This document shows, piece by piece, positions 1 to 26,235 of a stretch of 64,000 nucleotides of DNA; the first letter of the stretch is position 1; each line of letters begins with the position of its first letter. The notes below the pieces were generated by a model. That model saw only the letters and a program-made list of their open reading frames with translations. It did no database searches and was not told the DNA's origin. Origin of the DNA: Streptomyces diastaticus subsp. diastaticus (GTDB lineage Bacteria > Actinomycetota > Actinomycetes > Streptomycetales > Streptomycetaceae); assembly GCF_011170125.1 (NCBI RefSeq), contig NZ_BLLN01000006.1, positions 1-64,000 of the forward strand, in the 5' to 3' direction. Position numbers and translations under genes: made by a program.

Positions 1-941
1 CGTGGGCCGCGGGCCTGCGCGAGTTTCGCGAAGGACAGGACCTTGGGGCTGGCGACGTGCTTGGCCCGTTCGTACGCTCCTTCGGCCATGTCGACGGCCT
101 CGCCGGGATGCCCGCGGAGGAACGCGGACAGGGACATGGTGGAGAGTACGTACGCGCCGACCTGGACGTCGCCGGCAGCGCGCGCCATGGCCAGGGCCTG
201 GATGAGGTAGCGCTGGGCGGCGTCGTGCTGGCCGTTGTCGAACGCGGACCAGCCGACGACGCGGGACAGCTCGGCCGTCACCCGGAGCAGATCCTGGCGG
301 ACCTTCTCGCTGCAACTGCCCTGGAGCATGGGCGCGGCGCGGTCCCGCAAACAGACGGTGACGGAGGACGCTTTCCAGTTGCCGCCGCCGAACTTCGAGT
401 CCCAGATGCGCGCGTCTTCGACGGCCTCCCACAGCTCGTCCAGTTCGCCCTGGCCCACGCGCCGGGCGCCGCGGTGCTCGGCGGGTGGAACGGCAGCGGC
501 AGCGGGGACAGCGAGCCACCGGGTGGTCGGGAGGGCGAAGGCTCCAACGGCGAAGGAGCCGTGAAGGAAGTTGCGGCGGTCCACAAGTCTCCAGAAGGCG
601 ATGGCGCCGCGCACGGCGTCTGACGGGCTACGAGGAAAATCCAACCCGATCATGCCGGTCTCGCGGCGCGATCTCGTCATGGCGATCTCGCTCAAGTCGA
701 CGCGCCGCCCCAGGCGTTCGCCCAGCGCAGCGGCTATGCAAGCTGGTGCGGGGGCTCGCGGGATCATGCCTCGTTGTACCCAGTTGGTAACACTCGTATG
801 GGTGTACTCGGTCGGTCTGCCTGCTTGTTCTGCGAGCACATTGACCCGCTTCGCGAGCGATTCGTAGCTAGCGCCAGACGCCGCCACGAGCCGTTCTAAG
901 TCTTCGTTCGGCTGCCAGTCCCGCTCCTGCCACCGTGCCAC
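1..941 (-). CDS. Helix-turn-helix regulator with TPR-like C-terminus (3' end outside window)
   Basis: The frame is open from GTG 941 to the window edge, about 313 codons. The start follows GGAGG with a 5-nt gap, and the protein begins ARWQERDWQPNED. The N-terminal third looks like an XRE-type DNA-binding domain (NWVQRGMIP). An RRNFLHGSFAVGAF stretch near the middle resembles a twin-arginine motif followed by a hydrophobic run, as is common in this Streptomyces regulator family. The visible C-terminal part is helical and TPR-like (FDNGQHDAAQRYLIQALAMAR). It is divergent from the radical SAM cassette, so it could control it; that is inference. The C-terminus is missing. Confidence 0.8.
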   Translation of the reverse strand, partial: MARWQERDWQPNEDLERLVAASGASYESLAKRVNVLAEQAGRPTEYTHTSVTNWVQRGMIPRAPAPACIAAALGERLGRRVDLSEIAMTRSRRETGMIGLDFPRSPSDAVRGAIAFWRLVDRRNFLHGSFAVGAFALPTTRWLAVPAAAAVPPAEHRGARRVGQGELDELWEAVEDARIWDSKFGGGNWKASSVTVCLRDRAAPMLQGSCSEKVRQDLLRVTAELSRVVGWSAFDNGQHDAAQRYLIQALAMARAAGDVQVGAYVLSTMSLSAFLRGHPGEAVDMAEGAYERAKHVASPKVLSFAKLAQARGP

Positions 942-1013
942 GCGCACCTCCTTCGCCGGGCCCTCTGCACCCGTGCGTCCGCTCGCCCGGGAGCCTTCCG
1001 TGCGGCCGTGAGG

Positions 1014-1064
1014 GGGGGCTCACAAACGGGCTGAGTTTGTGATGTGTGAGCCCCCATTGTGAGC
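1014..1064. promoter_or_regulatory. Nested inverted repeats between divergent genes
   Basis: An 8-bp perfect inverted repeat, TCACAAAC (1020-1027) and GTTTGTGA (1035-1042), sits inside a larger dyad of GGGGGCTCACA (1014-1024) and TGTGAGCCCCC (1045-1055). A further TGTGAGC follows at 1058-1064. CTCACA/TGTGAG recurs again near 1184. Its place between the regulator start (941) and the radical SAM gene (1218) fits an operator cluster; binding is inferred. Confidence 0.5.
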
Positions 1065-1098
1065 TGTCGGCGGCCGTCCTGACAGAGCTTTACTCAGT

Positions 1099-1150
1099 GC
1101 AGAAGGGCCGATCACGGCATCACCTCGGCGACCGGGGGCCTCCCTTCTGC
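1099..1150 (+). promoter_or_regulatory. Hairpin in the leader of the radical SAM operon
   Basis: GCAGAAGGG at 1099-1107 is complementary to CCCTTCTGC at 1142-1150, with more GGCC pairing inside. It ends 67 nt before the radical SAM start. It may be an attenuator or an RNA stability element. No run of T follows, so a simple terminator is unlikely. Confidence 0.4.
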
Positions 1151-1217
1151 CGACAGGGATACGGCGTTGCCCCGCCGAGACACTCACAACGTCACCGCCT
1201 CTCTTCAGGAGAGCATC

Positions 1218-2237
1218 ATGGCCGTTCCGCTTGACCACAGCTCCGCTGTCGACTACACCGCCCTGCGCAACTTCGCGGCCCTCCGCGGACAGCTGCGCGT
1301 CTCTCTCACCCCCCGCTGCAACATCGCCTGCTGGTTCTGCCACAACGAGGGCGACATCCCGCCGCCGGTCACCCGGGCGAACCGGTCACTTCAGCCGCGG
1401 ATGAAGCAGTTCTCCGCCGAGAACTACCTGACCTCGATCGAGGCACTGGCCGGTGCGGGACTCAAACGGGTGTACTTCACCGGCGGGGAGCCGTTGACGT
1501 CACCGCTGGCCCGCCCTGTCCTGGAGAACCTGCCGGACCTGGGGGCCGACGGCTCCTACACCCTCATCACCAACGGCACCCGTGTGCGCTATCACCGGTC
1601 GTGGCTGGCCGGCACCCGCCTGGACAAGGTGAAGGTGTCGCTGCACTACTTCTCGGACGAGTCGATACGCGCCATCGCCAATACCCGTATCAGCATTGAT
1701 GCCGTTCTGGACGGCATCGAGCAGGCCCGGGGCATCTTCCCGCAGGTGGAGCTGAACTGCTTGCTCCAGCGGGAGAACGAGCATGAGATCGGCTCCATCC
1801 TGGAGTTCTCGCTGAACCGGCGCCTGCCCGTGCAGTTCATCGAACTGGTCAGCACCGACTTCAACGAATCCCGCGCCTCCTCGGCCGTCTCTGCGGACGC
1901 GCTGATCGCCCATCTGCGGACGCTCACGGCCGACGAACGCACCGAGGTCACCGGGGTCGGCCAGGGGCGGCGGGTGTTCCGCGTCGACGGAGTCGAGATC
2001 GACGTCATTCACCGCAACCTCGGCCGCCACCACGTCGGGCAGTGCGGAGCCTGCCCGAAGCGCACGCACTGCGTCGAGGGATTCTGGGCCCTGCGCCTGG
2101 ACCACACCGGCAGCCTCCAGCCGTGCCTGCTCCGCGACGACCTACGCCTTGACGTCACCTCGCTCGTGAACCACCCCGGGCACCTTGCCGAGACCACCGC
2201 GAGCCACGTCAGCGCCTTCACCGAGGGGTCCCTGTGA
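1218..2237 (+). CDS. MoaA-like radical SAM protein
   Basis: The 339-residue protein has the radical SAM cluster motif CNIACWFC (Cys 34, 38 and 41) and a TGGEPL motif for S-adenosylmethionine binding. Near the C-terminus it has further cysteines, CGACPKRTHC and later QPCL, arranged like the auxiliary 4Fe-4S site of MoaA. ATG 1218 is preferred over an upstream in-frame GTG because AGGAGA lies 5 nt before it. The stop overlaps the next start (GTGA), so translation is probably coupled. The substrate is unknown. No other molybdopterin genes are present, so molybdopterin synthesis is unlikely; a peptide or nucleotide substrate is inferred from the neighbours. Confidence 0.85.
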   Translation: MAVPLDHSSAVDYTALRNFAALRGQLRVSLTPRCNIACWFCHNEGDIPPPVTRANRSLQPRMKQFSAENYLTSIEALAGAGLKRVYFTGGEPLTSPLARPVLENLPDLGADGSYTLITNGTRVRYHRSWLAGTRLDKVKVSLHYFSDESIRAIANTRISIDAVLDGIEQARGIFPQVELNCLLQRENEHEIGSILEFSLNRRLPVQFIELVSTDFNESRASSAVSADALIAHLRTLTADERTEVTGVGQGRRVFRVDGVEIDVIHRNLGRHHVGQCGACPKRTHCVEGFWALRLDHTGSLQPCLLRDDLRLDVTSLVNHPGHLAETTASHVSAFTEGSL

Positions 2238-2869
2238 ACAGTATCGGCACGCCCTACCTGCCGACCCAGAACGACGGAAACGGCCCCTTCATCGTCCTGG
2301 AAGGCGTTTCGGGCATCGGTAAAACAACGCTCGCGGCCGTCCTGCGCGACCGCCTGAGCGCCACCACCCTCCACACTCTGCCCGCGCCCCACAACGGCTG
2401 GTCCGTCACAGTCAACGCGGTCCTGCGTCCCCTGCCTCAGTTCGCCTTCTACCTCTCCGGGCTGCTCCACGCCTCGGACCTGATCCGGCAGGCCCGCACC
2501 CTGGGCCCGGTCGTAGCCGACCGGTACGTCTCCTCCGTGACAGCGTGCCACGCCGCAGTGCACCAAGTGCCGATTGAGGCGGTCGTCGAGCGACTCCTCC
2601 CCTTCCGCGAGTACCTGGTCAATCCAACCCGTACCTTCTACCTCACCTGCACCGAGCAGAGGCTGCGCGAGCGCCTGACCACCAAGCAGGACATCAAAGC
2701 GGACGATCACGAACTCCTCTCCGTCCCCGGCCGGCTGACCAGCTTGCTGGCGAACTTCGAGCGCGTCGCGGCCCAGGACACAAGTGCGGTGTGCCTCGAC
2801 ACCAGCGAGGCGACCCCCGAAGACCTGGTCGACATCATCCTCAGCCACCTGGAGCACCCGCGTGCTTAA
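2234..2869 (+). CDS. Thymidylate-kinase-like P-loop protein
   Basis: The 211-residue protein has a Walker A motif GVSGIGKTT (residues 24-32) and the thymidylate kinase signature DRYVSSVTA, so the fold is that of dTMP kinases. A LID-like basic region follows (RLRERLTTKQD). The known activity is phosphoryl transfer from ATP to dTMP. The cassette context, with radical SAM, sulfatase-fold and Nudix proteins, suggests a specialised nucleotide or other small substrate rather than the housekeeping reaction. It overlaps the radical SAM gene by 4 nt and the next gene by 8 nt. Confidence 0.8.
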   Translation: MNSIGTPYLPTQNDGNGPFIVLEGVSGIGKTTLAAVLRDRLSATTLHTLPAPHNGWSVTVNAVLRPLPQFAFYLSGLLHASDLIRQARTLGPVVADRYVSSVTACHAAVHQVPIEAVVERLLPFREYLVNPTRTFYLTCTEQRLRERLTTKQDIKADDHELLSVPGRLTSLLANFERVAAQDTSAVCLDTSEATPEDLVDIILSHLEHPRA

Positions 2870-3341
2870 CCCGATCGACACCGCATCGGTGATCCGCGAA
2901 GGCGGCGCCGTCGGCATCCACCGTTCCGACCTGCACGAAGGCGTCGCCTGGTGGCTGGGCTCATGCCTGGTCGTGACTCACCAGGTGCGCCGTCTGCTCG
3001 TCGCCCACAGCGGCAGCCCTCTGATCGCCGCCTACGCCGACCGCCTGTGCAGAGGAGCCGTCAACGCCCGGCACTACGCCTGCGAGGTCACCACTATGGG
3101 CGCCCGAACCGAGGAGGAGTTCCTCTCCGCGCTGCAAGAGGCGCCGGTGGCCGGGGCGTGGCTGTCCGACTCCGACGGGCACGTACGCATCCGGCTCCAC
3201 GGCCCCGGCGGTGAAGCCCTCCAGGAGGCCGGCCTCGCGACCATCCGCGACATGATCAGCGGTGACCTGGTGCCCATCCCGGTCAACGACCGCGCGAGGG
3301 GCACGATCAGCCCCTGGCAGCCGAAGGAGGGCCGGACGTGA
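2862..3341 (+). CDS. Unrecognised protein of the radical SAM cassette
   Basis: GTG 2862 gives a 159-residue soluble protein of mixed helix and strand. It overlaps the kinase stop by 8 nt and the sulfatase-like start by 4 nt, so it belongs to the same transcript. I recognise no motif. It has few cysteines, no signal peptide and no membrane segment. The segment GEALQEAGLATIRDMISGD resembles a small ligand-binding or regulatory fold, but this is not enough for a call. Its fixed place between two enzymes suggests an enzyme partner. Confidence 0.7.
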   Translation: MLNPIDTASVIREGGAVGIHRSDLHEGVAWWLGSCLVVTHQVRRLLVAHSGSPLIAAYADRLCRGAVNARHYACEVTTMGARTEEEFLSALQEAPVAGAWLSDSDGHVRIRLHGPGGEALQEAGLATIRDMISGDLVPIPVNDRARGTISPWQPKEGRT

Positions 3342-4132
3342 TCGACGCCGCCGAGATCATCTCCGCAGGGCACGGCATCCTCTTCGTCACCCTCGACTCG
3401 CTGCGCTACGACGTTGCCCAAGACGCGCTCGGCTCCGGGCTCACGCCGCGGCTCGCCGCTCATCTGCCGGGCGGCCGGTGGGAGCGCAGGCAGACGCCGG
3501 GAACGTTCACCCTTCCGGCCCACATGGCGTTCTTCTCGGGCTTCCTTCCCAAGCTGCCCCAGCCCGTCCAGCCAACCCGCCTCTGGGAGTGCCGCCCACC
3601 GGCCTTCAAAACTGTGCCGGCCGAGACGTTCCTGTTCGACGCCCCGAACCTCCTGGCCGGCCTCAAGGCGCACGGCTACCGCACCCTGTGCGTCGGTGGC
3701 GTCACCTACTTCTCCCGAGAAACCCCGCTGGGCTCCGTCCTGCCGGACATGTTCGACGTGGACCGCTGGCGGCCGGAGTTCTGCTCCCCTCACAGCGACT
3801 CCACCCGCCACCAGGTGGACGAAGCCCTCGCCCTTGCCGACGCGTGCAACAAGCAGCCGCCGTTTCTCTTCGTCAACGTCTCGGCGACCCACGTCCCCCA
3901 CGGGCATTACCTGGGCTCCAGTACGGACACGGCCGCCTCGCAAAGAGCAGCGCTCGCGTACGCGGACACCCACCTCGGGCGCCTCCTCGACGGCCTCAAG
4001 CAGCACGGAACCTGGCTGGTGATCATGTGCGCCGACCACGGGGACGCCTACGGAGACGACGGCTTCAACGGGCGAGGCATCGCCCACCCGGCCGTGTTCA
4101 ACGTCCCCTACGCCGCGTGGGTCCATCGCTAG
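3338..4132 (+). CDS. Sulfatase-like (alkaline phosphatase superfamily) protein
   Basis: The 264-residue protein has the metal-binding start FVTLDSLRYD, a nucleophile-region motif TFTLPAHMAFFSG, an ATHVPHG motif and CADHGDAYGDDG near the C-terminus. These are the usual metal and active-site positions of the sulfatase/phosphatase fold. Thr or Ser, not the Cys of true sulfatases, sits at the nucleophile position, so phosphatase, phosphodiesterase or phosphotransfer chemistry is more likely. It is short for a sulfatase (usually 400-500 residues). It has no signal peptide and so acts in the cytoplasm. GTG 3338 overlaps the previous stop. Confidence 0.75.
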   Translation: MIDAAEIISAGHGILFVTLDSLRYDVAQDALGSGLTPRLAAHLPGGRWERRQTPGTFTLPAHMAFFSGFLPKLPQPVQPTRLWECRPPAFKTVPAETFLFDAPNLLAGLKAHGYRTLCVGGVTYFSRETPLGSVLPDMFDVDRWRPEFCSPHSDSTRHQVDEALALADACNKQPPFLFVNVSATHVPHGHYLGSSTDTAASQRAALAYADTHLGRLLDGLKQHGTWLVIMCADHGDAYGDDGFNGRGIAHPAVFNVPYAAWVHR

Positions 4133-4148
4133 GCGCTACCATCCCGCG

Positions 4149-4673
4149 ATGGCCAACACCCCGCATGCATCCGTCATCGTGGCCCGGGACGCCCAGGGCA
4201 ACATCGCACTCCTCAGCTCACACTTCCCCCAGCATGGTGGCGAGTACCTGTTCCTGCCCGGCGGGCGGTTCGAGAACGACGAGACGCCCCTGGAGTGCGC
4301 TCAGCGGGAACTCCTGGAGGAAGCGGGCGTGACCGGCGCACGCTGGGAGCCGCTTGGCTCCTTCACTCCCACCCTCGCCTCCCCGGCGAGGGTGCACCTG
4401 TTCCTCGCCGAGGAACTGACCCTGGGGCCCCAGCAGCTCACCCCGAGCGAGGCCGACTTCAAACTCACCTGGTGGCCGATGCACGAGGCCCTGGCCGCAG
4501 TGCAACGCGGCCAGTTCCTGCTCCCCGCGGGCCCCCTCGCCCTCTTCCTGGCAGCCCAGCACTCATCCACCGCCCCGCAGGGAACTGGAACGGGCAACGA
4601 GATAGAGCAGAACATCACACAGAACGACGCGGTGCGTTCCCGGCCAACTCTGACGCCAGTCGACCTCACGTGA
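4149..4673 (+). CDS. Nudix hydrolase
   Basis: A complete Nudix box is present: Gly, five residues, Glu, seven residues, then RELLEEAGV (about residues 38-60). Family members hydrolyse nucleoside diphosphates linked to another moiety and need Mg. The domain ends near FLAAQ. The last 40 residues (STAPQGTGTG onward) look unlike the family and run into a decayed PqqD-like reading, so the natural stop may have been lost. It starts 17 nt after the sulfatase-like gene and belongs to the same operon. The substrate could be the nucleotide handled by the kinase; this is inference. Confidence 0.85.
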   Translation: MANTPHASVIVARDAQGNIALLSSHFPQHGGEYLFLPGGRFENDETPLECAQRELLEEAGVTGARWEPLGSFTPTLASPARVHLFLAEELTLGPQQLTPSEADFKLTWWPMHEALAAVQRGQFLLPAGPLALFLAAQHSSTAPQGTGTGNEIEQNITQNDAVRSRPTLTPVDLT

Positions 4674-4884
4674 TGGCGGTCCGGTGCCACGGCCTGGGCC
4701 CTCGTCGCGACGCTCGCCGCCGAAGGCCACGGCGAGAAGGCCGAGCACACCATCCGGACCACCATCGACCAGCTCGTCACGTCGGGTACCTCACCATCGC
4801 CGGGCCGGAGCTCCAGACACTGCCTGAGCAGATGCCCGATGTGGCGGCGCCGGCCCCGGACACCGAACGGCCCCCTCCCGTCCG
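4632..4884 (+). pseudogene. Decayed PqqD-like (lasso B1/RRE) segment
   Basis: After the Nudix stop (4671) the same frame reads SGATAWALVATLAAEGHGE and then TIRTTIDQLVTSG. The neighbouring frame continues YLTIAGPELQTLPEQ up to the B2-like gene. Together these resemble the helical half of PqqD-like RiPP recognition elements, which bind leader peptides. At least two frame changes and one stop are needed, so no intact protein can be made in the standard way. The position directly before a B2-like gene matches lasso peptide B1. The identification rests on pattern only. Confidence 0.45.
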
Positions 4885-5268
4885 GTGCGCTGGCTGGCCC
4901 GGACCTGGCTGGCGCTCTCTGATGCTGATGACCGGGCCCTGGCGCCTCTGCGGGTGCTGCCCGCTGCCTCACCCGCTCTGGCCGGCGCCGTCTCGGCCGC
5001 CGTACTGCAGATCCACCCGGCCTGGTACCGGGGCCGCATCGCCTGCATGGAAATCTCGCTCGCGACGGTCCTCGCCCTGGCGCTCTGCGGCCGACAGGCC
5101 CACTGGGTGCTGGGCGCACGGCAGTTGCCCGCCGAGGCACATGCGTGGGTGTGGACCGAGAACGGCGCATTCGGGCTGTCCGGCCGCGACCGCCCCGACC
5201 CCCGCCGCCCCTGGGTCGGCACCCTCGCCACACCTCCCGTACCGCACCCCCGAAAGGGTGAGCCGTAA
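4885..5268 (+). CDS. Lasso-peptide-B2-like transglutaminase-fold protein
   Basis: The 127-residue protein contains CMEISLATVLAL and, about 35 residues later, EAHAWVW. These match the Cys and His blocks of lasso peptide B2 leader peptidases (usual forms CxxRS and HAWVE). The usual Arg of the Cys block is Ile here and the trailing acidic segment is altered, so activity is uncertain. The N-terminal half (RWLARTWLALSDADD) resembles the start of B2 proteins. GTG 4885 is taken as the start, but the true protein may have been fused to the decayed PqqD segment. It ends 6 nt before the ABC transporter frame. Confidence 0.6.
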   Translation: MRWLARTWLALSDADDRALAPLRVLPAASPALAGAVSAAVLQIHPAWYRGRIACMEISLATVLALALCGRQAHWVLGARQLPAEAHAWVWTENGAFGLSGRDRPDPRRPWVGTLATPPVPHPRKGEP

Positions 5269-5274
5269 GGCGCC

Positions 5275-7254
5275 ATGTTGACGCCCTCAGGGGTTGACCT
5301 GCTGATCTGCACAACACCGCAGGCAATCCCCGTGCGCCGGAGCCACGGCCCGCCATACACCGGAGGAGTGACAACACCCACCCCGCCCGACGTCCCCGTC
5401 ATGCGCCTGGCCGATGACAGCCGCCCCACCACCGGCATAGGCCGAACCGCCCGGCGGATGCCCGCCGTCCTGGCCCGCACCGCCCGCCTCGCCTGGCGCG
5501 CCGACCGCCCAGCCGTGGTCTGCATGGTCGTCGCACAAGTCACGGCCGCCGCCCTCGCGGCGCTCGCCCTGACCGCGACAACCGCCGTACTCGCAGCCGG
5601 CCTCGACATGGCCACCGCCCACTCCACAGGCCGGCCCGTTGCACCCCTGCTCTCGGCAGCAACCACGCCCTGCGTCACCCTGGTCCTCGCGCTCGCCGGA
5701 GCCGCCCTCGCGGACGCGGCCGCCCGCGCGGCCGCAGCCCGACTCGGCCCGAAGTGCTCACGCGAAGCCGACCTCCAGGTCCTCGACGCCGCCGCCCGCG
5801 TCGAGCTGATCGCCTACGAGCACCCCGGCTTCGAAGACGCTCTCGACGCCGCCGGCAAGGGCGCCGAAAGCGCCCGCGACCTCGTCGCGGACGCCCAGAG
5901 CCTCATCTCGACCACCGCCCGCCTCGCAGCCGTCGCACTCGTCCTCGCCACGCTCGACCCGTCCCTCCTCGCCCTGCTCCTCCTCGCGGCAGCACCCCGC
6001 GCCGTCGCCTCCCTGCGCGCCGCCCGCCTCGAACACGCCGCCGTCCACGCCTCCCGCGCGGACTCCCGCCTCCGGCAGTCCCTGCGCGGCTACAGCACCG
6101 ACCGCAACACCGCCGCCGAAATCCGCGCCTCCGCCATGGGCCCCTTCCTCAGCACCCGCTACCGGCAGGTCTCCGACCGCCTCGAACACGACGTGCTCAC
6201 CGCCGCCCTCCGCTCCCTGCGCGTGCAGCTCACCGGCGACGCCGCCTCCTCCCTGGCCCTCGCCGGCTGCTTCGCCGCCCTCGCCTGGATGGTCACCGCC
6301 GGCCGCATCGACCTCGCCGCCGCAGGAACCGCCCTCTTCGCCCTCCGTACCGCCTCAGCCGCCCTGACCACACTCACCCGCGCCGCCGCCCGCGTCTTCC
6401 GCACCGGCCTCTACCTGGACGACTGGTCCGCATTCCTCACCGACGCCGACCACCACCGCACCCGCAGAGGAACCCTCCAGCTCCCCGCCGGACCACCCAC
6501 GCTCATCACCGCCCGCAACATCACCTTCACCTACCCGGGGGCCGACCGGCCCGCCCTGGACCAACTTGACTTCGACCTCCGCTCCGGCGAACTCGTCGCC
6601 GTCATCGGGGAAAACGGCGCCGGCAAATCCACCCTCGTCCAGCTCCTCACCGGCCTCTACCTCCCAGACACCGGTACCGTGCGCTGGGACGGCCTCGACC
6701 TGGCCGACATCGACCCGGCAAGCGTCTGGGCAAAACTAGCCCTCACCCCCCAGGACTACACCCGCTGGCCCCTCACCGCACGGGAGAACATCCACCTCGG
6801 AACACCCCGGCCAGAAGGCGACCAAGCCGTCATGGAAGCCGCCCGCGCCTCCGGCGCCGACACCGTCCTCGCAGCACTCCCCCAGGGCCTGGACACCTCC
6901 CTGGCACGCTCATGGTGGGGCGGACACGACCTCTCCGGCGGCCAATGGCAACGCCTCGCCCTCGCCCGCTCCTTCCACGCCGACGCCCCCGTCCACATCC
7001 TCGACGAACCCACAGCAGCCCTCGACGCCCGCGCCGAACACCAAGTCCTCCAGCGATTCCGCGCCCTCACCGACGCACGCGCCGGCCTCTTCGTCACCCA
7101 CCGCCTCGCCTCAGCCCGCATCGCCGACCGCGTAGTGGTCCTCCACCACGGCCGCGTCACCGAATCCGGAACCTACGACGAGTTGCTACACCAGCCCGGC
7201 AGCCGCTTCGCCGAGCTACACCAACTCCAAAGCGGAACCGAACTGGTCCAGTGA
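5275..7254 (+). CDS. ABC exporter with fused membrane and ATPase domains
   Basis: The protein has up to 659 residues. The N-terminal half has about six hydrophobic segments and the C-terminal half is an ABC ATPase. The ATPase has Walker A GENGAGKST, signature LSGGQ, Walker B VHILDEPTAALD and switch His in FVTHR. The layout is that of half-size exporters that secrete peptides, including lasso peptides. The start is uncertain: ATG 5275 has a weak AAGG; GTG 5368 has GGAGG only 1 nt away; ATG 5401 has none. It follows the B2-like gene directly and is the last gene before the terminator at 7362. Confidence 0.85.
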   Translation: MLTPSGVDLLICTTPQAIPVRRSHGPPYTGGVTTPTPPDVPVMRLADDSRPTTGIGRTARRMPAVLARTARLAWRADRPAVVCMVVAQVTAAALAALALTATTAVLAAGLDMATAHSTGRPVAPLLSAATTPCVTLVLALAGAALADAAARAAAARLGPKCSREADLQVLDAAARVELIAYEHPGFEDALDAAGKGAESARDLVADAQSLISTTARLAAVALVLATLDPSLLALLLLAAAPRAVASLRAARLEHAAVHASRADSRLRQSLRGYSTDRNTAAEIRASAMGPFLSTRYRQVSDRLEHDVLTAALRSLRVQLTGDAASSLALAGCFAALAWMVTAGRIDLAAAGTALFALRTASAALTTLTRAAARVFRTGLYLDDWSAFLTDADHHRTRRGTLQLPAGPPTLITARNITFTYPGADRPALDQLDFDLRSGELVAVIGENGAGKSTLVQLLTGLYLPDTGTVRWDGLDLADIDPASVWAKLALTPQDYTRWPLTARENIHLGTPRPEGDQAVMEAARASGADTVLAALPQGLDTSLARSWWGGHDLSGGQWQRLALARSFHADAPVHILDEPTAALDARAEHQVLQRFRALTDARAGLFVTHRLASARIADRVVVLHHGRVTESGTYDELLHQPGSRFAELHQLQSGTELVQ

Positions 7255-7361
7255 CCAGCGTTCGGTGTTCAACGTCCCCTGCTGAGGGGCCGCTGATCGA
7301 TTCCGCGCGTTCCCGGCCGGGCCGGATCACCCCAGCCCTAGAATCGGACCGTGCACGTAGG

Positions 7362-7400
7362 CCAGCGGGCCCCCTCAACGCCTCTGAGGGGGCCCGCTGG
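7362..7400. terminator. Perfect 16-bp hairpin between convergent genes
   Basis: A 16-nt arm (7362-7377) is exactly complementary to 7385-7400 with a 7-nt loop. It lies between the ABC exporter (ends 7254) and the DUF397 gene on the other strand (ends 7453), so it can serve both. Confidence 0.85.
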
Positions 7401-7452
7401 ATTCGCTGGTGGTTCCGTGATCTCCGATTTCCTCGTTCAGTGATGCCCGCGG

Positions 7453-7644
7453 CTATTCCGCAGGAACATCGCCCAGGAAGGCGCTCCAGGCATCGCCGCT
7501 GACGGCGAACCCCCGGATGCTCGTGTCCTTGGAGTCGCGAACGCGGACGCTGCCTGGCGTGGCGGCAACCTCTACGCAGTTGCCGGAGCCTCCGCTGCTG
7601 TAGGAACTCTTCCGCCACTCGATGTGGTCTGCGGTGTTGGTCAC
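7453..7644 (-). CDS. DUF397 protein
   Basis: The 63-residue protein has the family pattern WRKSSYSSGGSGNCVEVA, then VRVRDSKD and SGDAWSAFLGD, which covers the whole DUF397 domain. GTG 7644 overlaps the stop of the XRE gene (GTGA). Such small proteins are the usual partners of XRE/DUF5753 regulators in Streptomyces; some pairs behave like toxin-antitoxin or developmental control modules. The start of the longer open frame is excluded because it runs through the regulator gene. Confidence 0.9.
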   Translation of the reverse strand: MTNTADHIEWRKSSYSSGGSGNCVEVAATPGSVRVRDSKDTSIRGFAVSGDAWSAFLGDVPAE

Positions 7645-8555
7645 GGGGTGACCCCTTCGTTTCCGAGTTTGTACAGGTATTCCGGAGTCTCCTCCGGGGC
7701 CAGCGCAAAGCTGGACATCGTGGAGAACGCTCGGGCGAAGCGTTCGATCTGGGCAGGCTTGTCGCTGGTGCTGAGGGCTCCCCAGGCGGTGTCCGTCTGG
7801 ACCACCGGCCGCAGAGGTTTCCTCAGGTTCAGGACTGCGAAGTCGTGCGTGGCGCGGTAGCCGCCACTGTTGAGGGGGAGGACCTGGATGCTGACGTGCG
7901 GAAGGCGGGAGAGCATCGCAAGTTCGTCCCACTGCTTGCGCATGATGTCTTGCCCTCCGACTCTCGCTCGTAGAGCTGCCTCACTGAGGATGGCGTGGAT
8001 GTACACGGGTTTCGGCTGTCTTTGCAGGACTCGCCGCTTGCGCTCGGCGCGGAGTTGGACGTGGGTGCGGATGAAGGTGTTCGTGGTGTCCGCAACATTC
8101 TGCTCCGCCTCGTAGAGGGCCTTGGCGTAGTCCTCGTGCTGAAGCAGTCCGTGCACGATCCCGGGGTGGTAGAGGTTGATCGATTCGGCGTCGGCCTCCA
8201 GGCCGACGAAGGCCGTCATGCTGGGCGACATCACGGGCCTGAAGGCCGTGGTCCAGTCCTCGTTGCTCCTGTCCTTCGACCAGAGCTCCATCACCCGTTC
8301 CTGCTGTTCCAGGTCATCGATTCCGTAGAGCTCTATCAGGGCTTTGAGCACAGGCTTCGTGCGGATACGGGCCTGACCGTTCTCGATCCGGACGAGGGTG
8401 TGCTCAGAAATCTTGAAGGGCTTGATGGACGGATGCGCCACGACGAACTTCCGTGTCATGGGCCGGCCGTCCACGAAGACCCGCTCGCGGGCCCCCTTGA
8501 GGTACAGGCCCAGCTCCGCACGGTTGGCTCCGCCGCTGCGCTCTTGACGACCCAT
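7641..8555 (-). CDS. XRE regulator with DUF5753-type domain
   Basis: ATG 8555, with AGGGGAAG about 8 nt upstream, gives 304 residues beginning MGRQERSGGANRAELG. The N-terminal region (about 5-70) is a helix-turn-helix containing SEHTLVRIENGQARI. The rest matches the DUF5753 ligand-type domain (YHPGIVHGLLQHEDYAKAL, then SIQVLPLNSGGYRA). It is translationally coupled to the DUF397 gene. It probably represses or activates its own promoter through the repeats at 8650-8690; that is inference. Confidence 0.9.
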   Translation of the reverse strand: MGRQERSGGANRAELGLYLKGARERVFVDGRPMTRKFVVAHPSIKPFKISEHTLVRIENGQARIRTKPVLKALIELYGIDDLEQQERVMELWSKDRSNEDWTTAFRPVMSPSMTAFVGLEADAESINLYHPGIVHGLLQHEDYAKALYEAEQNVADTTNTFIRTHVQLRAERKRRVLQRQPKPVYIHAILSEAALRARVGGQDIMRKQWDELAMLSRLPHVSIQVLPLNSGGYRATHDFAVLNLRKPLRPVVQTDTAWGALSTSDKPAQIERFARAFSTMSSFALAPEETPEYLYKLGNEGVTP

Positions 8556-8649
8556 GGCCCGAACTTCCCCTCTCAGTGACGCCCAGACAGATTGTGGCAT
8601 CGCGCTGCACATTGAGCGCCAGCCCAGCACATTCGCGCATATGCCATCT

Positions 8650-8690
8650 CAACTGCAAGCGCAATTGCGGTTGCAGTTTCGGTTGCAGCT
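8650..8690. promoter_or_regulatory. Clustered TTGCAG/CTGCAA repeats upstream of the XRE gene
   Basis: CAACTGCAA, an AATTGCGGTTGCAG segment and a second GGTTGCAGC occur within 41 nt, giving direct and inverted copies of one hexamer. The cluster is 95 nt upstream of the XRE start and 130 nt upstream of the divergent gene at 8821. It fits an operator for the adjacent regulator. Confidence 0.45.
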
Positions 8691-8820
8691 CACTGGCCGC
8701 GCCGCCCACGGTAGTTCAACAGGCGCTCAACACGTACCGGGACCGGCATAAGTCTTGGACTGCCGCATAGCGTCTGCTTTCACTTCATTCCGTGCGCATT
8801 CCCCGGCCCTGGAGGCTCCG

Positions 8821-9483
8821 ATGGGTACTGAGCAGGTGGCCGCCTGGCCGAGCTGCCGCGAGGCGGCCTGGGACGCCATCCCGTCGTACGAGCCGCCCGC
8901 GCTCTCGGAGGCGGACGAGCAGTTGGTCGACGCGCTCCTGAGCAGAGCACGGGTCGAGCTAGTCGACGGTGAGGCCGGCGCCGGGCCTGGTGACGGCTGG
9001 AAGCCCCGGCTGCCGGTACCGTCGCCTCCGGCACCGGTGCTGACCCGGCCGACCGCCGTGGCGGAGAGGATCGGCCCGCAGAGCTGGGGCGAGTGCGGGC
9101 CCGTCGAGCACTGGCACCTGCGTCGGCGCCGGGCCCGGATGTACGAGAACCGTGCGGGCGAGTTCGCGCGCCCGCCGGTCGTGCTCTACGCCCAGGCCAG
9201 CGTCGCGAGCGCGATGAACCGACCGACCAGGACGCTGGCTCACGTGCGGATGTGGTCGGAGGGCCGGTTCGGGGTCGTCGGCAACCTGTGGGACCAGCCC
9301 GGCTCCCGAGTCCAGCTCGACGAAGCGGTGCGCTGGTGCAGGCGTGGTCTCGCCCACGGCATCGTGGCGCTCTCCCCTCAGAGCGTCGCGGACACCCCCG
9401 CCGCGTACGAAGCCTGCCTCGACCGGCTCGAAGGGCCGGGCCACTTCATGCAGCACCCGCCGGTCGACTGGCGGCTGATGTGA
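8821..9483 (+). CDS. Hypothetical protein, first gene of an unknown operon
   Basis: ATG 8821, with CTGGAGG 6 nt upstream, gives 220 residues. An acidic N-terminal helix region (SEADEQLVDALLSRARVEL) precedes a basic middle and a C-terminal domain with RMWSEGRFGVVGNLWDQPG. I recognise no family. There are no membrane segments. It overlaps the next gene by 4 nt and opens a run of eight co-oriented genes. Confidence 0.7.
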   Translation: MGTEQVAAWPSCREAAWDAIPSYEPPALSEADEQLVDALLSRARVELVDGEAGAGPGDGWKPRLPVPSPPAPVLTRPTAVAERIGPQSWGECGPVEHWHLRRRRARMYENRAGEFARPPVVLYAQASVASAMNRPTRTLAHVRMWSEGRFGVVGNLWDQPGSRVQLDEAVRWCRRGLAHGIVALSPQSVADTPAAYEACLDRLEGPGHFMQHPPVDWRLM

Positions 9484-10013
9484 CAGCGCTCACGGCCGAC
9501 CCCAAGGCCATCGCCGCGATTGCCGCCGACCAGCCGCCGTCCGAGGAACCAGCGGACCGGCACCTCCTCGCACTGATCCGGGCCCTGCTGGCGACCGAGA
9601 AGGCGGGAGGGGAGGCGCGGGCCGCGATGCCCCTCGGCGGGACCTTCGACCTGGTGGTCACCAGCGACGGCATGGCCGCCGCGCGGGCTCTGCGCGCGAT
9701 GGACGAGGTCCAGGGCGTCACGGCCGGCGTGGTCCGGCTGCCGGCGCCGGGCCTGCTGCTGTGGTGCGTGCCGCCCGGTACCGCCGCCGGCTGGGCCGGG
9801 CACCCGGCGGCGCTGTGCGTCGGGGCTCCGTACGCGGTGCCGCTGCCCGGCCCCGGCGCGGACTCGGGCCCCGGCCCCTACTGGGCGCGGCCCTTCGCCG
9901 CCGCGCAGCGGGTGCCGCCCGGGCCGCTGCGGGCGCTGCTCACCGAGTACGGGCCGCCGCCGCCCCACGACCGCGTCGCCGCCAGCGGGCTGATCACCAT
10001 CAGCCCCTCCTGA
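9480..10013 (+). CDS. Hypothetical protein
   Basis: GTG 9480 overlaps the previous stop and gives 177 residues. The protein starts with an alanine-rich helical region and continues with a domain containing LGGTFDLVVTSDGM and a Gly/Pro-rich end (GPGADSGPGPYWARPF). The family is not recognised. A longer upstream frame overlapping the previous gene is ignored. Confidence 0.65.
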   Translation: MTALTADPKAIAAIAADQPPSEEPADRHLLALIRALLATEKAGGEARAAMPLGGTFDLVVTSDGMAAARALRAMDEVQGVTAGVVRLPAPGLLLWCVPPGTAAGWAGHPAALCVGAPYAVPLPGPGADSGPGPYWARPFAAAQRVPPGPLRALLTEYGPPPPHDRVAASGLITISPS

Positions 10014-10101
10014 TCCTCCCGGCCCCCGGGTCGACCGCCTCCGTCCCCCCGTCGGAGCGTCCCCGGCGGGCCGGGAGTCCCAACTCGAAAGGCCCACCCC
10101 C

Positions 10102-10719
10102 ATGGACCACCCGCCCCTTTTCCTCCTCGGCAGGGCTCTGAGAGCCGCCCGCCTCGGCAACAGCGACATGCGCGGGTTCGGAACGCCGAACGTCGTGGCG
10201 CGCCTCGACCGGACCGCGCTGGCGGCGTACGTCCGGGCCCCGGTGAAGACCCCTCCCGAGGTGCTGCTGGAGCTGCTGGGTGTGGAGCCGGTCGCCGTGG
10301 TGCGTGTGATGGCCTGGGACCGCGGCGGCGTGCCGTGGGTGACCTGCGCCCTGCGGAGCGACGCCGCCCGGGCCCTGGCGCGCCGTGTGCTGGACGCGCT
10401 CACCGACGCGCAGGCCGCCGCGCTTCGTCTGGGCGACGCTATCGACGCCCTTGCGCCGGTGGGGGGCCCGGAAGAGGCCGACGTCAGCGCCACGTCGTAC
10501 CGGCCGGGCGCCGTCACCGTGGACATCCCGCCCGCGTCCATGCACTTCCTCCCGCGCATCGTCACGGCCACGGAACCCGACCGGGTCGAGATCAGCCAGC
10601 ACCCCCTCGGGGGGCTTCACGTCGAGTTGACGGTCGACCAGGCTGACCGGCTCACCACGGCGCTGCTGTCGGCCGCGGCGCCCTCGGCCGAGCCCGGGGA
10701 GCAGGGGACGGCCTCGTGA
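10102..10719 (+). CDS. Hypothetical protein
   Basis: ATG 10102, with GAAAGG about 9 nt upstream, gives 205 residues. Strand-rich segments are seen (VLLELLGVEPVAVVRVMAW, GGLHVELTVDQADRL). No motif is recognised and there is no signal or membrane segment. The stop overlaps the next gene by 4 nt (GTGA), so the two are coupled. Confidence 0.65.
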   Translation: MDHPPLFLLGRALRAARLGNSDMRGFGTPNVVARLDRTALAAYVRAPVKTPPEVLLELLGVEPVAVVRVMAWDRGGVPWVTCALRSDAARALARRVLDALTDAQAAALRLGDAIDALAPVGGPEEADVSATSYRPGAVTVDIPPASMHFLPRIVTATEPDRVEISQHPLGGLHVELTVDQADRLTTALLSAAAPSAEPGEQGTAS

Positions 10720-11294
10720 GCGCCGCCAGCATGATTGCCGTCGAACAGGCCGTGCCGTGGCCGGCCGTGCAGCGGGTGGAACGGGCTGCGGTGCGGATCG
10801 ACACCGTGCAGGTCTGTCTGCCCCCGCCGGCGATGTGCCTGCCCGACTTCCGGTCCTGGGCCGCGCACCGGATGAACCGGACGCCCCCCGCCGGCCGTGT
10901 GTACGAGGTCCCGGAGGCGGTGGTGCACTGGTACGCGCCGGTGTCGGTCCTCAAGCGCGGCTGCCTGGCGCCGGGTACGGACGCCGACCGGTACATGATC
11001 GCCGGCCAGCTCAGGTTCATGCTCTGGCAGATACGCCGTGAGCGGCTGGTCTTCCACCTGGTGCCCGAACCGACCGCCGGCGCCGGCCACCTCGACGGGC
11101 TCACGGCCTACTACGAGGCAGGCGACGCGGACCCGCTCCTGGTCTACGACCGCCTCCACGAGGTCACCGCCGTGTCCCCGGCATCCCGCACCACCGCCGC
11201 CGGCGCCTTCACCGAGTTCGAACGCGCCGCCCTTCCCGACTTCACCGGCGCGGTCATGCTCCAAAGCCACCTCAACAGCGTCTCCCCGGAGTAA
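10716..11294 (+). CDS. Hypothetical protein with VHWYA motif (paralogue 1)
   Basis: The 192-residue protein contains AVVHWYAPVSVL, a long helix RYMIAGQLRFMLWQIRRERL and DPLLVYDRLHEVTAVS. The next gene has the same blocks in the same order (VVHWYAHPATL, LLLLRQIDHLRHL, QSVLAHDIGPSVREIADVS), so the two are paralogues from a tandem duplication. The family is not recognised. The helical block and acidic ends suggest a small regulatory or sensor protein, without proof. Confidence 0.7.
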   Translation: MSAASMIAVEQAVPWPAVQRVERAAVRIDTVQVCLPPPAMCLPDFRSWAAHRMNRTPPAGRVYEVPEAVVHWYAPVSVLKRGCLAPGTDADRYMIAGQLRFMLWQIRRERLVFHLVPEPTAGAGHLDGLTAYYEAGDADPLLVYDRLHEVTAVSPASRTTAAGAFTEFERAALPDFTGAVMLQSHLNSVSPE

Positions 11295-11297
11295 CCC

Positions 11298-12140
11298 ATG
11301 GCCCTCACTGCCCCGTTCGGCCCCGGCCCCAGTCGTCCCCTGCCCGCGGTGAAGACGACGCTCAGCCTGGCCGAGGCGCGGGACCTGGACACCGGCTCCC
11401 CCAAGATCGAGGTGGTGAGCCTGACGGTCCCGCCGCCGATGATCCGCCAGCCGGCGTACCACACCTGGGCGCGCTCACGCGTCGCCTCGCCCTGGCCGAT
11501 GCGCACCCACCAGCCGGTCGGCGTCGTCCACTGGTACGCCCACCCCGCGACCCTCGCCCACGCGTTCTCCCTGCACAAGGAGACCGGCGACCCGTCGCAC
11601 TACCTGCCCAGGCCCGAGCCGGAGCAGCGGCTGCTCCTCCTGCGGCAGATCGACCACCTGCGGCACCTGATCACGCTCGGCAAACTGGGCATCCGCCTCT
11701 TCCCTGCCGGGACCGAAGCCTCGCCGGACGCTGACGGGGTCACCCTCTACCACCGCCACCAGGGCCAGTCGGTCCTGGCGCACGACATCGGGCCGTCGGT
11801 CCGCGAGATCGCCGACGTCTCGCGGCCCGACGTCCTCGGCTGGCTGAATCAGATCCGCGAAGCCGCCGGGCCCCCCGAGGAGGGCGCCGAACTACTGGCC
11901 GAGCAGTACCGGGCGATGGCCAAAGCGGTGTGCGGGCCGGGCTGGCGGTGCCCGCACACGCCCTGCTGCCCGGACCCGTCCGCCCCCGACGCCGAGGCCG
12001 CAGAGCTGCTGATCGTCCACGACGAGCAGGGGTGGGGACGCCGCTGTAACGGCGTCTTCAGCTTCGCCGACTCCGGACGCCTCGGGCCCGGTGGCCAGGT
12101 CGTCGCGCCGCACCGCCCTCTCCCCCGCACCACCCGCTGA
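11298..12140 (+). CDS. Hypothetical protein with VHWYA motif (paralogue 2)
   Basis: ATG 11298 has GGAG 6 nt upstream; the protein is 280 residues. It shares the VHWYA block, helix and DIGPSVREIADVS block with the upstream gene. It adds a C-terminal extension containing CGPGWRCPHTPCCPD, a Cys/His-rich cluster that could bind zinc, followed by SADAEAAELLIVHDEQG-like acidic sequence. The function is unknown. It starts 3 nt after the previous stop. Confidence 0.7.
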   Translation: MALTAPFGPGPSRPLPAVKTTLSLAEARDLDTGSPKIEVVSLTVPPPMIRQPAYHTWARSRVASPWPMRTHQPVGVVHWYAHPATLAHAFSLHKETGDPSHYLPRPEPEQRLLLLRQIDHLRHLITLGKLGIRLFPAGTEASPDADGVTLYHRHQGQSVLAHDIGPSVREIADVSRPDVLGWLNQIREAAGPPEEGAELLAEQYRAMAKAVCGPGWRCPHTPCCPDPSAPDAEAAELLIVHDEQGWGRRCNGVFSFADSGRLGPGGQVVAPHRPLPRTTR

Positions 12141-12154
12141 CAGGAATGCCGTAC

Positions 12155-12877
12155 ATGAAGCCGATGACCGCCACCGACGTCCTTCCGGCGTCCGTCCCGC
12201 CCGACGGCCTCCAGAGCTGCGCCGGGGACGGCCAGTTCACCAGGGTCCGCGCCGGAACGCGGAGCCTGCTGCGGGCCCTGTTCGGAGTGGGTGACTCGGA
12301 CAGTCCCGGCGAGGAGCTGAGCAGGCTGCTCGCCACCGAGATTCCCCGGGCGAAGCTGCGGCCGATGGACCGGGAGGCGTCCACGGTCGAGCTCACCGTG
12401 CCCGCGGGCGATGACGCGCGGCTCGCGCAGCTCGCCTACACGCACCTGGACGAACCCCGCCGCGCGCTGCTCTGTCTCCAGGTCGCCCTGCGCACCGTGG
12501 GGCTGGCCGTGCCCACCGAGGCCCGTCCCGCGGAGAAGGTCCGGGTCGGCGCCCTCGACACCCGGGGCCTGCTCTCCCTTCTCCCTCCTCGGCATCAGCA
12601 CGCCTGCGCCGTCCAGGTGGCGACCAGCCACGGCTGGTCGCGGGAGAGCTGCATCGCGGCTGCGGACTTCCTCGCCGACGGCGACCAGGGCGTCGTCTCC
12701 GCTCTCGCGGCCGCCGTCGACCAGCTCCTGGCCGAAGCCGGCGTGAGGGCGGTCACCGACGCCACCCCCGCAGGCGCATGCACCACGGCCACGTACGAGA
12801 CCGTCCTCCCCTCGGAAGCGGCCCGGGCCCTCGCCGGGAGCCTGGAACTGCGCGAGGTCCAGCGCGATGCCCGGTAG
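12155..12877 (+). CDS. Hypothetical protein
   Basis: ATG 12155 is preferred over ATG 12146 because AGGA at 12142-12145 is well spaced only for the former. The protein has 240 residues. The C-terminal half shows two similar segments with SRESCIAAADFLADGDQG and TYETVLPSEAARALAGSLE. No known motif is recognised. The 3' end overlaps a small membrane-protein gene by 11 nt. Confidence 0.65.
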   Translation: MKPMTATDVLPASVPPDGLQSCAGDGQFTRVRAGTRSLLRALFGVGDSDSPGEELSRLLATEIPRAKLRPMDREASTVELTVPAGDDARLAQLAYTHLDEPRRALLCLQVALRTVGLAVPTEARPAEKVRVGALDTRGLLSLLPPRHQHACAVQVATSHGWSRESCIAAADFLADGDQGVVSALAAAVDQLLAEAGVRAVTDATPAGACTTATYETVLPSEAARALAGSLELREVQRDAR

Positions 12878-13022
12878 CGCGAAGACCGCCCTGGTCCTCG
12901 GCCTGGGCATCGGCGGCACGATCGCCCTGGCGCTGCTGGGCGCGTTCGCCTCGCTCGTGCGCGCCGTGGCCCGCGCGGAGAACGAGGAAGACCCCGGCCG
13001 CCAGGAAGGGCTGCGGAGATGA
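12867..13022 (+). CDS. Small single-pass membrane protein (51 residues)
   Basis: ATG 12867 opens a 51-codon frame inside the end of the previous gene, with AGGTCC upstream. Residues about 6-30 form one hydrophobic segment (TALVLGLGIGGTIALALLG), followed by a charged tail (RAVARAENEEDPGRQ). The stop overlaps the next ATG (ATGA). Both overlaps and the clear membrane segment support a real gene. Confidence 0.65.
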   Translation: MPGSAKTALVLGLGIGGTIALALLGAFASLVRAVARAENEEDPGRQEGLRR

Positions 13023-13597
13023 CGTACGCCGCCCGGCGCGCCGGAGAGACACCACTGCCCCTCGCCATCACGGTCGACGATGACGGCGTCCGCTACACCG
13101 ACGCCTTTCACAACGCCGTGATGCGCGACATCGACAGCGTCCTGTGGCAGGCGACCGGACCCGCCGACGGCCCGCCCGTGCACGGCGACCCGCTCCACCC
13201 CGGGCGGCAGCGCGACGCCATGGAACACCTGTGGTGCGCAGAGTGCGGCCGCCCGCCCGGGCGGACCGGCGACGGCGTGCCGTGGGTCCTCGCCGCCCCC
13301 ACGCCCGCGCCCACCTGGGAGGGCGTCTATGCCGAGGTGCCGCCCATCTGCGACACCTGCCTCGACCGTGTTCTGGGCACCTGCCCCTCCCTTCGTGCCG
13401 GCCACGTCGTGCTGCGCGTCCACGAGGCGCCCGTCGTCGGCTACCGCGGCACGCTCCACCCCCGCCCCAAGCAGACCGGCCAGCCCGAGGCCGACACCTT
13501 CGTCCCCCTCATCAGCGACGACTGCCGCTACCTCATCGCAACCTCTCTCGTGCGCCAGCTGTTCGGCTGCACGGTGATCACCAGCCACCACCCCTAG
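13019..13597 (+). CDS. Hypothetical protein with paired CxxC motifs
   Basis: The 192-residue protein contains WCAECGRPPG and, about 40 residues on, ICDTCLDR, a likely zinc-ribbon site. The C-terminus has SDDCRYLIATSLVRQLFGC. It is translationally coupled to the small membrane protein and ends the unknown operon. The family is not recognised. Confidence 0.7.
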   Translation: MTYAARRAGETPLPLAITVDDDGVRYTDAFHNAVMRDIDSVLWQATGPADGPPVHGDPLHPGRQRDAMEHLWCAECGRPPGRTGDGVPWVLAAPTPAPTWEGVYAEVPPICDTCLDRVLGTCPSLRAGHVVLRVHEAPVVGYRGTLHPRPKQTGQPEADTFVPLISDDCRYLIATSLVRQLFGCTVITSHHP

Positions 13598-13758
13598 ACC
13601 ATCCCGGGCCGCCCCCTCCCTTCGTGCCGCGGCCCGGGAACCGAGGGCACCGCACCCTGGCAGGGGCGCGGTACCCGCACGGCCGCCGCGCCCTGGCCGG
13701 GGCGCGGCGGCCGCCACCCCGCCGAGTCCCCGTCAACCCGCCCGAGGAACGCCTTCCC

Positions 13759-14649: not shown

Positions 14650-14705
14650 CCCCGGACCGCCCAGCACCGGCTGCTCCACTCCCCCTGACCAGGAAGGACC
14701 ACCGC

Positions 14706-15542: not shown

Positions 15543-15655
15543 ACACGCCCCGTCGGGGCAGAGCGCTCGCGCAGCGTTCGCCCCGGCGCCACGACCGAGT
15601 CCTTGCTACCGCGCCCAGCGGGACGCCCGGCTCGACACCACCGGGAGAACCGCAC

Positions 15656-16333: not shown

Positions 16334-16627
16334 CCAAGCAGGCGGACCTCCTCGAACTGCTCCCCCTCACACTCCGGCATCGACCAGCGGCCCCCATGCC
16401 CGTCTTCTGTTCTCGACCGCATCGAAGTCATCGTCCTGCTCGTCCCCGGCGTGCACCGGGGCGCTCACTCCTCGGCCGTCGCCGCGCACCTCGACGTGGT
16501 GGAGGCCCTGACCTCGCGGGCCGGTCGCGCCCGACCCGAAGGCGTACTGGAGCTGGTTGTCGCGCGCAACGGCGTCCGCTGGCCGCGGAGATGAGGGGGT
16601 TGGTGCGGCAATGACGTCTCGGAGGGG
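16334..16627. other. Gap without intact gene
   Basis: One plus-strand stretch (about 16420-16595) reads like protein (VIVLLVPGVHRGAHSSAVAAH, then EGVLELVVARNGVRW before a stop) but has no start. It is probably the tail of a lost gene. Nothing else is visible. Confidence 0.4.
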
Positions 16628-17298: not shown

Positions 17299-17343
17299 GG
17301 TCAGACCTATGAGGGTGCGGTCACGGGCCGTTGGGGGGAGCCT

Positions 17344-19532: not shown

Positions 19533-19591
19533 AGGCGTGCCACCTCCCGCTGTTCCCAGACGGCGACGGCGCGCTTGGTGATGGCCTTCTC
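19529..19591 (-). pseudogene. Gene tail cut by CRISPR array 1
   Basis: A reading AITKRAVAVWEQREVARL runs out of the truncated last repeat and stops at 19529, overlapping the next GTG. About 20 residues remain of a gene whose upstream part is replaced by the array. Confidence 0.4.
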
Positions 19592-26234: not shown

Positions 26235-26235
26235 C

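Follow-up and report, generated by a model that had tools for sequence, protein, structure and literature searches.

A mobile five-gene cassette for a radical SAM enzyme, a kinase and a Nudix hydrolase beside a lasso cluster remnant in Streptomyces diastaticus

The genes thmA–C of Photorhabdus asymbiotica code for a radical S-adenosylmethionine (SAM) enzyme, a nucleoside kinase and a nucleoside triphosphatase. These three genes are reported to be sufficient for the formation of 4′-thiothymidine in Escherichia coli, thmC confers resistance, and the flanks of this minimal set, which comes without an exporter, vary among species (PMC12691670). Here we analyze a stretch of 64,000 bases from Streptomyces diastaticus subsp. 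diastaticus (bases 1–64000 of the 85-kb contig NZ_BLLN01000006.1, in the following called the window), in which five genes between positions 1218 and 4673 are one conserved, tightly coupled cassette. They code for a MoaA-like radical SAM enzyme, a thymidylate-kinase-like kinase, a stand-alone phosphohexomutase domain, an STM4013-like hydrolase and a Nudix hydrolase. The core of the cassette appears to have the make-up of thmA–C, as a radical SAM enzyme, a predicted nucleoside or nucleotide kinase and a predicted nucleotide hydrolase lie in one operon with unrelated flanks; the two are likened by enzyme families and not by sequence homology. In contrast to the cassette, the thm genes are gammaproteobacterial and are accompanied by neither phosphohexomutase-like nor STM4013-like proteins, and ThmC is termed a triphosphatase, the word Nudix being absent from the text (PMC12691670).

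Three further systems share parts with the cassette. In the tubercidin cluster a Streptomyces nucleoside pathway with a radical SAM enzyme is ended by the Nudix hydrolase TubG, but the radical SAM enzyme is a different one, acting in the 7-deazapurine route, and the other partner enzymes differ as well (PMC6112128). Prokaryotic viperins with a kinase (pVip) resemble the window in that a radical SAM gene adjoins a nucleotide kinase gene; the radical SAM enzyme of the window, however, scores far under the viperin cut-off. Finally, the STM4011–STM4015 clusters, numbered by NCBIfam-style names, contain a hydrolase of the same family (46% identity) beside radical SAM enzymes. In the cluster that we compared (L134; a second one, L135, resembles it as judged from open reading frames only) the partners are nevertheless an ATP-grasp-like protein, an LRR-like protein, a HemN-like radical SAM enzyme and one protein without Pfam match, and a kinase, a Nudix hydrolase or a phosphohexomutase domain was not seen. 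Neighbors of the STM4011, STM4012 and STM4014 type, which occur in L134, were not found among the window genes searched. A role of the STM4013 family was not found stated in the literature; the one paper that names STM4013 does so in a table of sigma54 sites. Likewise, no description of the five-gene set was found in our literature search.

Organization and conservation of the cassette

The radical SAM gene (1218–2237, PF04055 with 71.1 bits) overlaps by 4 bases with the kinase gene (2234–2869, PF02223 with 33.7 bits), which in turn overlaps by 8 bases with the third gene (2862–3341). The hydrolase gene (3338–4132, PF00884 with 51.1 bits) begins with a further 4-base overlap, and a gap of 16 bases separates it from the Nudix gene (4149–4673, PF00293 with 60.9 bits). 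Together with the genes of a lasso B2-like peptidase and of an ABC exporter further downstream, all are on the plus strand. The initial annotation, made from the sequence alone, had described five genes that overlap or nearly touch and are followed by these two, and the positions given there are correct. Its names for six of the parts (radical SAM, TMP-kinase-like, sulfatase-fold, Nudix, B2, ABC) agree with the Pfam and NCBIfam matches; the remaining one, the third gene, had been listed as unknown.

To describe the conservation we used the radical SAM enzyme as query and compared 24 loci obtained from species genomes with seven more from 100 related genomes, the own genome being excluded. After leaving out a duplicate (L013, identical to L035) and one locus that is too distant (L041), 29 relatives and the window make up 30 distinct loci; the stretches of the relatives covered up to 10 kb on each side of the cassette. 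The complete five-gene set is present in 24 of the 30 loci, the window counted (tblastn). Three loci (L033, L034, and L036) have the radical SAM, kinase and Nudix genes and lack the third gene and the hydrolase gene, and one (L016) has the radical SAM and kinase genes with a different Nudix gene 289 bp downstream. With start codons chosen by script and the window counted, the 4-base overlap between the radical SAM and kinase genes is found in 26 of the 29 loci that have both genes, and the one between the third gene and the hydrolase gene in 23 of 25. This recurrence of the overlaps in the relatives argues against a chance arrangement of the genes. In addition, the pairwise protein distances correlate in all ten pairings of the five proteins (r 0.42–0.85), with at most one in 2000 permutations reaching as high a value.

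With a minimum of 209 bits for the third protein and of 520 bits for the hydrolase, the two are found in the identical 13 of 246 Streptomyces genomes, the own genome counted, and their genes are adjacent in all 13; another genome (G002) carries broken remnants of both. The core of the cassette is thus the radical SAM, kinase and Nudix genes, and the third gene and the hydrolase gene are an add-on pair which is gained or lost together. The surroundings are not conserved: by gene clustering, no other flanking gene family is common to more than five loci. Upstream of the cassette helix-turn-helix regulators are common, with 13 of 51 upstream proteins matching HTH_31.

Both S. albidoflavus and Kitasatospora carry the cassette on linear plasmids, and given this location and its varied flanks it is a mobile unit. 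A 1.7-Mb linear plasmid of Kitasatospora (NZ_CP109408.1) holds two full copies (L152 and L156) with the same identities to the window, and a third radical SAM place in addition.

Predicted activities of the five proteins

The radical SAM enzyme has the CX3CX2C motif and an auxiliary motif CX2CX5CX17C, and the cysteines C34, C38, C41, C276, C279, C285, and C303 are invariant in 28 aligned sequences. Its closest solved structure is MoaA (1tv7, E 6.7e-23), and MoaA models score 115–122 bits. We nevertheless rejected an assignment as MoaA, the GTP 3′,8-cyclase, as TIGR02666 gives 117.2 bits against an equivalog cut-off of 284.05. The four-cysteine auxiliary motif, seen in all 28 sequences, is not the CX2CX13C of MoaA, and the C-terminus, which reads FTEG(T/S)L in most relatives as it does in the window, lacks the Gly-Gly of MoaA, as compared with IGG in L139, a separate radical SAM protein with MoaA hallmarks from one of the genomes (G058). 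In an alignment with L139 we looked at the GTP-site arginines of MoaA, R17, R71, R192, R266, and R268. R17 is kept as R27 and R268 as R293, whereas R71, R192, and R266 are replaced by Y86, Q206, and A291. An assignment as prokaryotic viperin was rejected as well (NF038283 35.7 bits, cut-off 180).

The kinase is closest to the thymidylate kinase (TMK) structure 2plr (E 1.2e-8), but with 51 bits it stays below the cut-off of TIGR00041 (83.25), and dTMP kinase was rejected as assignment. It keeps the P-loop and DR(Y/W); the Arg of the ADRA motif and the Gln of the AYQ motif, presumably the residues contacting the thymidylate base, are lost in comparison with the typical TMKs L149 and L148, which are encoded separately in two genomes (G000 and G047, respectively). 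Since a protein with MoaA hallmarks (G058) and typical TMKs (G000 and G047) are encoded apart from the cassette, its enzymes are distinct from the housekeeping ones.

The third protein (159 aa) has no Pfam match at 0.1, and fold comparison identifies it as an alpha-D-phosphohexomutase domain I. Domains II–IV and the catalytic Ser-His-Asn-Pro (TASHNP) loop are missing, with HNP absent in all 24 sequences; H25, W30, W31, N68, and H71 are invariant. We therefore regard it as a putatively catalytically dead phosphohexomutase domain I, so that the cassette of the window is a five-gene form which, beyond the core, includes this domain and a second phosphoester-related protein.

The hydrolase belongs to the STM4013/SEN3800 family of the alkaline-phosphatase superfamily (NF038075, 338.5 bits, cut-off 250). 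Among 23 sequences D20, T58, and D233 are invariant, and H234 is replaced only in L023, by Gln; the four residues are also kept in nine compared hydrolase sequences that include ordinary STM4013 proteins. Formylglycine sulfatases carry Cys or Ser as nucleophile in a C/S-x-P-x-R motif. This assignment was rejected, as the window protein has Thr at the nucleophile position, within a T-L-P-A-H sequence at T58 that is invariant in the 23 sequences. In another locus (L131, 5171–8220) a 54% identical STM4013-like hydrolase has a sugar nucleotidyltransferase and a PCMT-type methyltransferase as neighbors, and related hydrolases are also found in L132 and L133.

The Nudix box GX5EX7REUXEEXGU is complete in the window, as had been noted in the initial annotation, and G39, E45, R53, E54, E57, E58, and G60 are invariant in 27 sequences. 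It matches the solved structure of the ADP-ribose pyrophosphatase 1mk1 (E 1e-12). With 174 aa the window protein is longer than the 26 relatives (137–159 aa), owing to a longer C-terminal tail.

Proposed function and alternatives

We suggest, with a probability of about 0.58, that the five genes are a mobile operon which would make a modified nucleoside or nucleotide of the nucleoside-antibiotic type and would limit its toxicity to the producer. The TMK-like kinase might phosphorylate a nucleoside or a nucleoside monophosphate other than dTMP, and the MoaA-like radical SAM enzyme might then rearrange the sugar or the base of the phosphorylated substrate. The Nudix hydrolase could hydrolyze the di- or triphosphate form, either as a tailoring step or for self-protection as with ThmC. 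The STM4013-like hydrolase with its presumed Thr nucleophile could remove or transfer a phosphate ester, and the dead phosphohexomutase domain could bind a sugar-phosphate-like intermediate or serve as a scaffold for the hydrolase. If this proposal holds, new radical SAM nucleotide chemistry would become accessible through a unit of three to five genes and ∼3.5 kb that is small enough to be expressed as a whole. The cassette would also supply a functional context for the hydrolases of the STM4013 family.

An independent hint in favor of this function of the core comes from another plasmid. The window stretch 1109–8844 is exchangeable: on NZ_CP108380.1 (L155) other genes are found between matching flanks, with window 1–1108 corresponding to L155 6001–7112 (90.8% identity) and 8845–14332 to 13120–18615 (93.7%). 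In this shared slot L155 (7309–10697) carries genes for a DNA-glycosylase-like protein, a B12-binding radical SAM enzyme, a dTMP kinase and a Nudix hydrolase, the latter three joined by 4-base overlaps. The L155 kinase aligns with the window kinase but scores above the cut-off for dTMP kinases (TIGR00041, 95.9 bits), whereas the radical SAM enzymes are of different classes and do not align (hhalign probability 2.3). Both cassettes thus follow the same logic of overlapping genes with kinase and Nudix partners of the same kind around unrelated radical SAM enzymes. Of 199 Streptomyces genomes, 12 contain cassettes of the L155 type, altogether at 13 loci, with the kinase adjacent at 12, the Nudix gene at 10 and the DNA-glycosylase-like leading protein at 11 of the 13 loci. 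The leading protein resembles 3-methyladenine DNA glycosylases (E 2.5e-5), although Pfam HhH-GPD gives just 0.025, in two of ten members. For this sister cassette only, the combination of a DNA glycosylase with nucleotide-modifying enzymes suggests a product that enters DNA. If the proposed function is correct, the slot on the linear plasmids would hold natural counterparts, two or perhaps more, that differ in the class of the radical SAM enzyme and have kinase and Nudix hydrolase in common.

Several observations weigh against the proposed function. The kinase and the Nudix hydrolase do not fix the substrate, the nearest solved Nudix structures being ADP-ribose pyrophosphatases, and the five-gene cassette has neither a conserved exporter nor, as far as seen, a glycosylase-like gene. 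A split or stopped gene is found in no fewer than four of the 24 complete loci, L012 lacks the Nudix gene, and L015 has only the radical SAM and Nudix genes and no kinase gene; kinase and Nudix hydrolase are therefore either not indispensable everywhere or these two loci are decaying.

The strongest competing explanation, which we consider rather unlikely, is a sugar-nucleotide or sugar-phosphate pathway in which an activated sugar (ADP-ribose-, NDP-sugar-, or phosphosugar-like) is modified and the phosphohexomutase domain marks the class of substrate. The fold of the third protein and the closeness of the Nudix hydrolase to ADP-ribose pyrophosphatases speak for it, and the L131 hydrolase beside a sugar nucleotidyltransferase would fit this pathway equally well. 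Against it, the catalytic loop of the phosphohexomutase domain is missing, the domain is absent from three variant loci that keep the radical SAM, kinase and Nudix genes, and the kinase belongs to the thymidylate-kinase group.

That the cassette is a viperin-like antiphage system, with the radical SAM enzyme making an intracellular chain-terminating nucleotide and the kinase supplying the NTP, appears improbable to us. The PADLOC model for pVip matches the radical SAM enzyme (1.5e-10), the kinase matches the PADLOC models PDC-M51B (1.4e-13) and VakA (3.2e-6), and the mobile, accessory distribution would be in agreement with such a role. However, the viperin score given above is far too low in view of the 115–122 bits of the MoaA models, and the cassette is found in no phage record at 1e-20. 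A location in a defense island was also rejected, as the 51 upstream proteins gave just single PADLOC matches at 1e-8, counted without a background set.

Nucleotide housecleaning or cofactor salvage, in which the enzymes would repair or recycle damaged nucleotides, we regard as quite improbable. Nudix and kinase enzymes are common in nucleotide sanitation and there are no signs of toxicity within the cassette, but a housekeeping role predicts a wider retention than the 13 of 246 Streptomyces genomes with both marker genes, and the unstable surroundings and the plasmid carriage argue in the same direction.

The lasso remnant and the surroundings of the cassette

The initial annotation had offered two readings, one pathway of all seven genes or a nucleotide cassette that adjoins a lasso cluster in decay. 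The latter description is the correct one: the B2-like peptidase and the exporter are the remnant of an unrelated lasso-peptide cluster and do not belong to the cassette. The stop codon of the Nudix gene ends at 4673 and the lasso DNA begins at 4699, so that the junction is bracketed to positions 4674–4698. From 4699 to 7257 the window is 95.4–95.9% identical on the DNA level to the B1-B2 and exporter genes of two lasso clusters on S. albidoflavus plasmids (L153 and L154); on NZ_CP109595.1 and NZ_CP109244.1 this DNA (95–96% identity from 4699 onwards) ends a cluster of an asparagine synthase (Asn-synthase) gene, a B1-B2 gene and an exporter gene. The PqqD-like remnant seen in the initial annotation is thus real. 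It is a B1 remnant (4699–4884) whose 5′ side is cut off; protein comparison with distant B1 proteins by itself supports it weakly, with a score of 41 against a mean of 26 and a maximum of 45 in 300 shuffled sequences. It is followed by the B2-like peptidase gene (4885–5268, NF033537 43.4 bits, cut-off 33; PF13471 39.1 bits) and the exporter gene (5401–7254, PF00005 100.3 bits), for which we assume the ATG at 5401, the open frame permitting an alternative start at 5275. In contrast to L153 and L154, the window lacks the precursor gene A, the Asn-synthase-like gene C and most of B1; no Asn-synthase was found among the nine window proteins searched.

The five genes co-occur without this pair. The 31 stretches of relatives, which include all 29 distinct ones, contain neither a match to B2 (E 1e-4) nor an exporter match reaching 120 bits, and in two genomes (G058 and G047) cassette and exporter lie megabases apart. 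Seven of 72,556 plasmid records hold at least 80% of 4699–7254, and of these one has the complete cassette, one a partial one and five none (megablast). A conserved precursor peptide, for which the initial annotation had proposed a search of the small frames within 5 kb, did not emerge either: among 1953 open reading frames of 20–90 aa no family occurs in more than three of the 30 loci (BLASTP E 1e-6 over 60% of the length, so that a very short or divergent peptide may escape), and each of the twelve largest groups is located upstream of the cassette. Without a recurring family a peptide product is not supported. Of the two products proposed in the initial annotation the nucleotide-modified peptide thus loses its basis, whereas a nucleotide-derived compound gains support. 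A ribosomally synthesized and post-translationally modified peptide (RiPP) pathway, lasso peptides included, was accordingly rejected, and a B2 gene and an exporter gene beside a radical SAM gene are by themselves not a lasso or RiPP cluster. That the two lasso genes process or export the cassette product, as their strand, their close spacing and the recurrence of the Nudix-B2 neighborhood on NZ_CP109086.1 and NZ_CP109244.1 might suggest, is very improbable and largely refuted by these results.

According to the initial annotation a single pathway would be refuted if, in addition, the B2/ABC pair always sat with a complete lasso cluster, and here the evidence is mixed. With 5398–7254 as query a homolog at E 1e-150 is present in 19 of 150 Streptomyces genomes, the own genome counted, and seven neighborhoods were examined. 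The three best-scoring exporters (L062, L063, and L064) adjoin an Asn-synthase-like gene and a B2 gene, two of them with a PqqD match, that of L062 being just under the cut-off (23.3, cut-off 23.4). Speaking against a strict association, the L066 exporter has an Asn-synthase-like gene only and three of the seven (L065, L067, and L068) show no lasso partner, although L065 scores 643 bits and thus nearly as high as the third best (645). Moreover, L010 and L015 contain, at their far edges, ABC fragments that cluster with the exporter family, and an open reading frame upstream of the cassette in L033 (9459–9740) is B2-like by eye but matches neither B2 at 1e-4 nor any Pfam family at 0.001.

A B2 copy also follows the Nudix gene on two S. 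albidoflavus plasmids, which argues for a juxtaposition inherited in that lineage. NZ_CP109086.1 carries the five genes (94.4% identity) and then the B2 copy, with a B2 piece and an exporter gene ∼4 kb further on. NZ_CP109244.1 carries a cassette remnant (shortened third gene, hydrolase and Nudix genes) with the B2 copy beside an IS5 transposase gene, and its lasso cluster is ∼18 kb away. The window probably belongs to this group of S. albidoflavus linear plasmids, as judged from sequence comparison, and the juxtaposition of cassette and lasso genes is a lineage-specific rearrangement on them. Pieces of the 3′ end of lasso B2 are scattered on the S. albidoflavus plasmids (L153 2433–2681 and 7963–8199, L151 19887–20131, L154 1240–1473), a distribution reminiscent of a site of recombination.

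The seven genes are flanked by genes for an NsdA-family TPR regulator (3–947, NF053720 with 254 bits) and a DUF5753 XRE-type regulator (7641–8630), both on the minus strand. Positions 1–1677 overlap with the end of another contig of the same assembly (C4) at 99.94% identity, so that the two contigs probably join; a second radical SAM copy on C4 was rejected, as it is this 1677-bp overlap of contig ends. Further downstream the window contains a type I-C-like CRISPR-Cas locus (19590–31930) with cas1, cas4, cas7, cas8c (Csd1), cas5, and cas3, around which two arrays with ∼37-bp repeats lie on opposite strands (19590–21310 and 29680–31930); type I-E genes are near the cassette in two sister plasmids. 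At 57623–58425 and 60823–61156 the sequence is of low complexity and consists of tandem repeats, their units measuring 30, 60, 252, and 6–56 bp.

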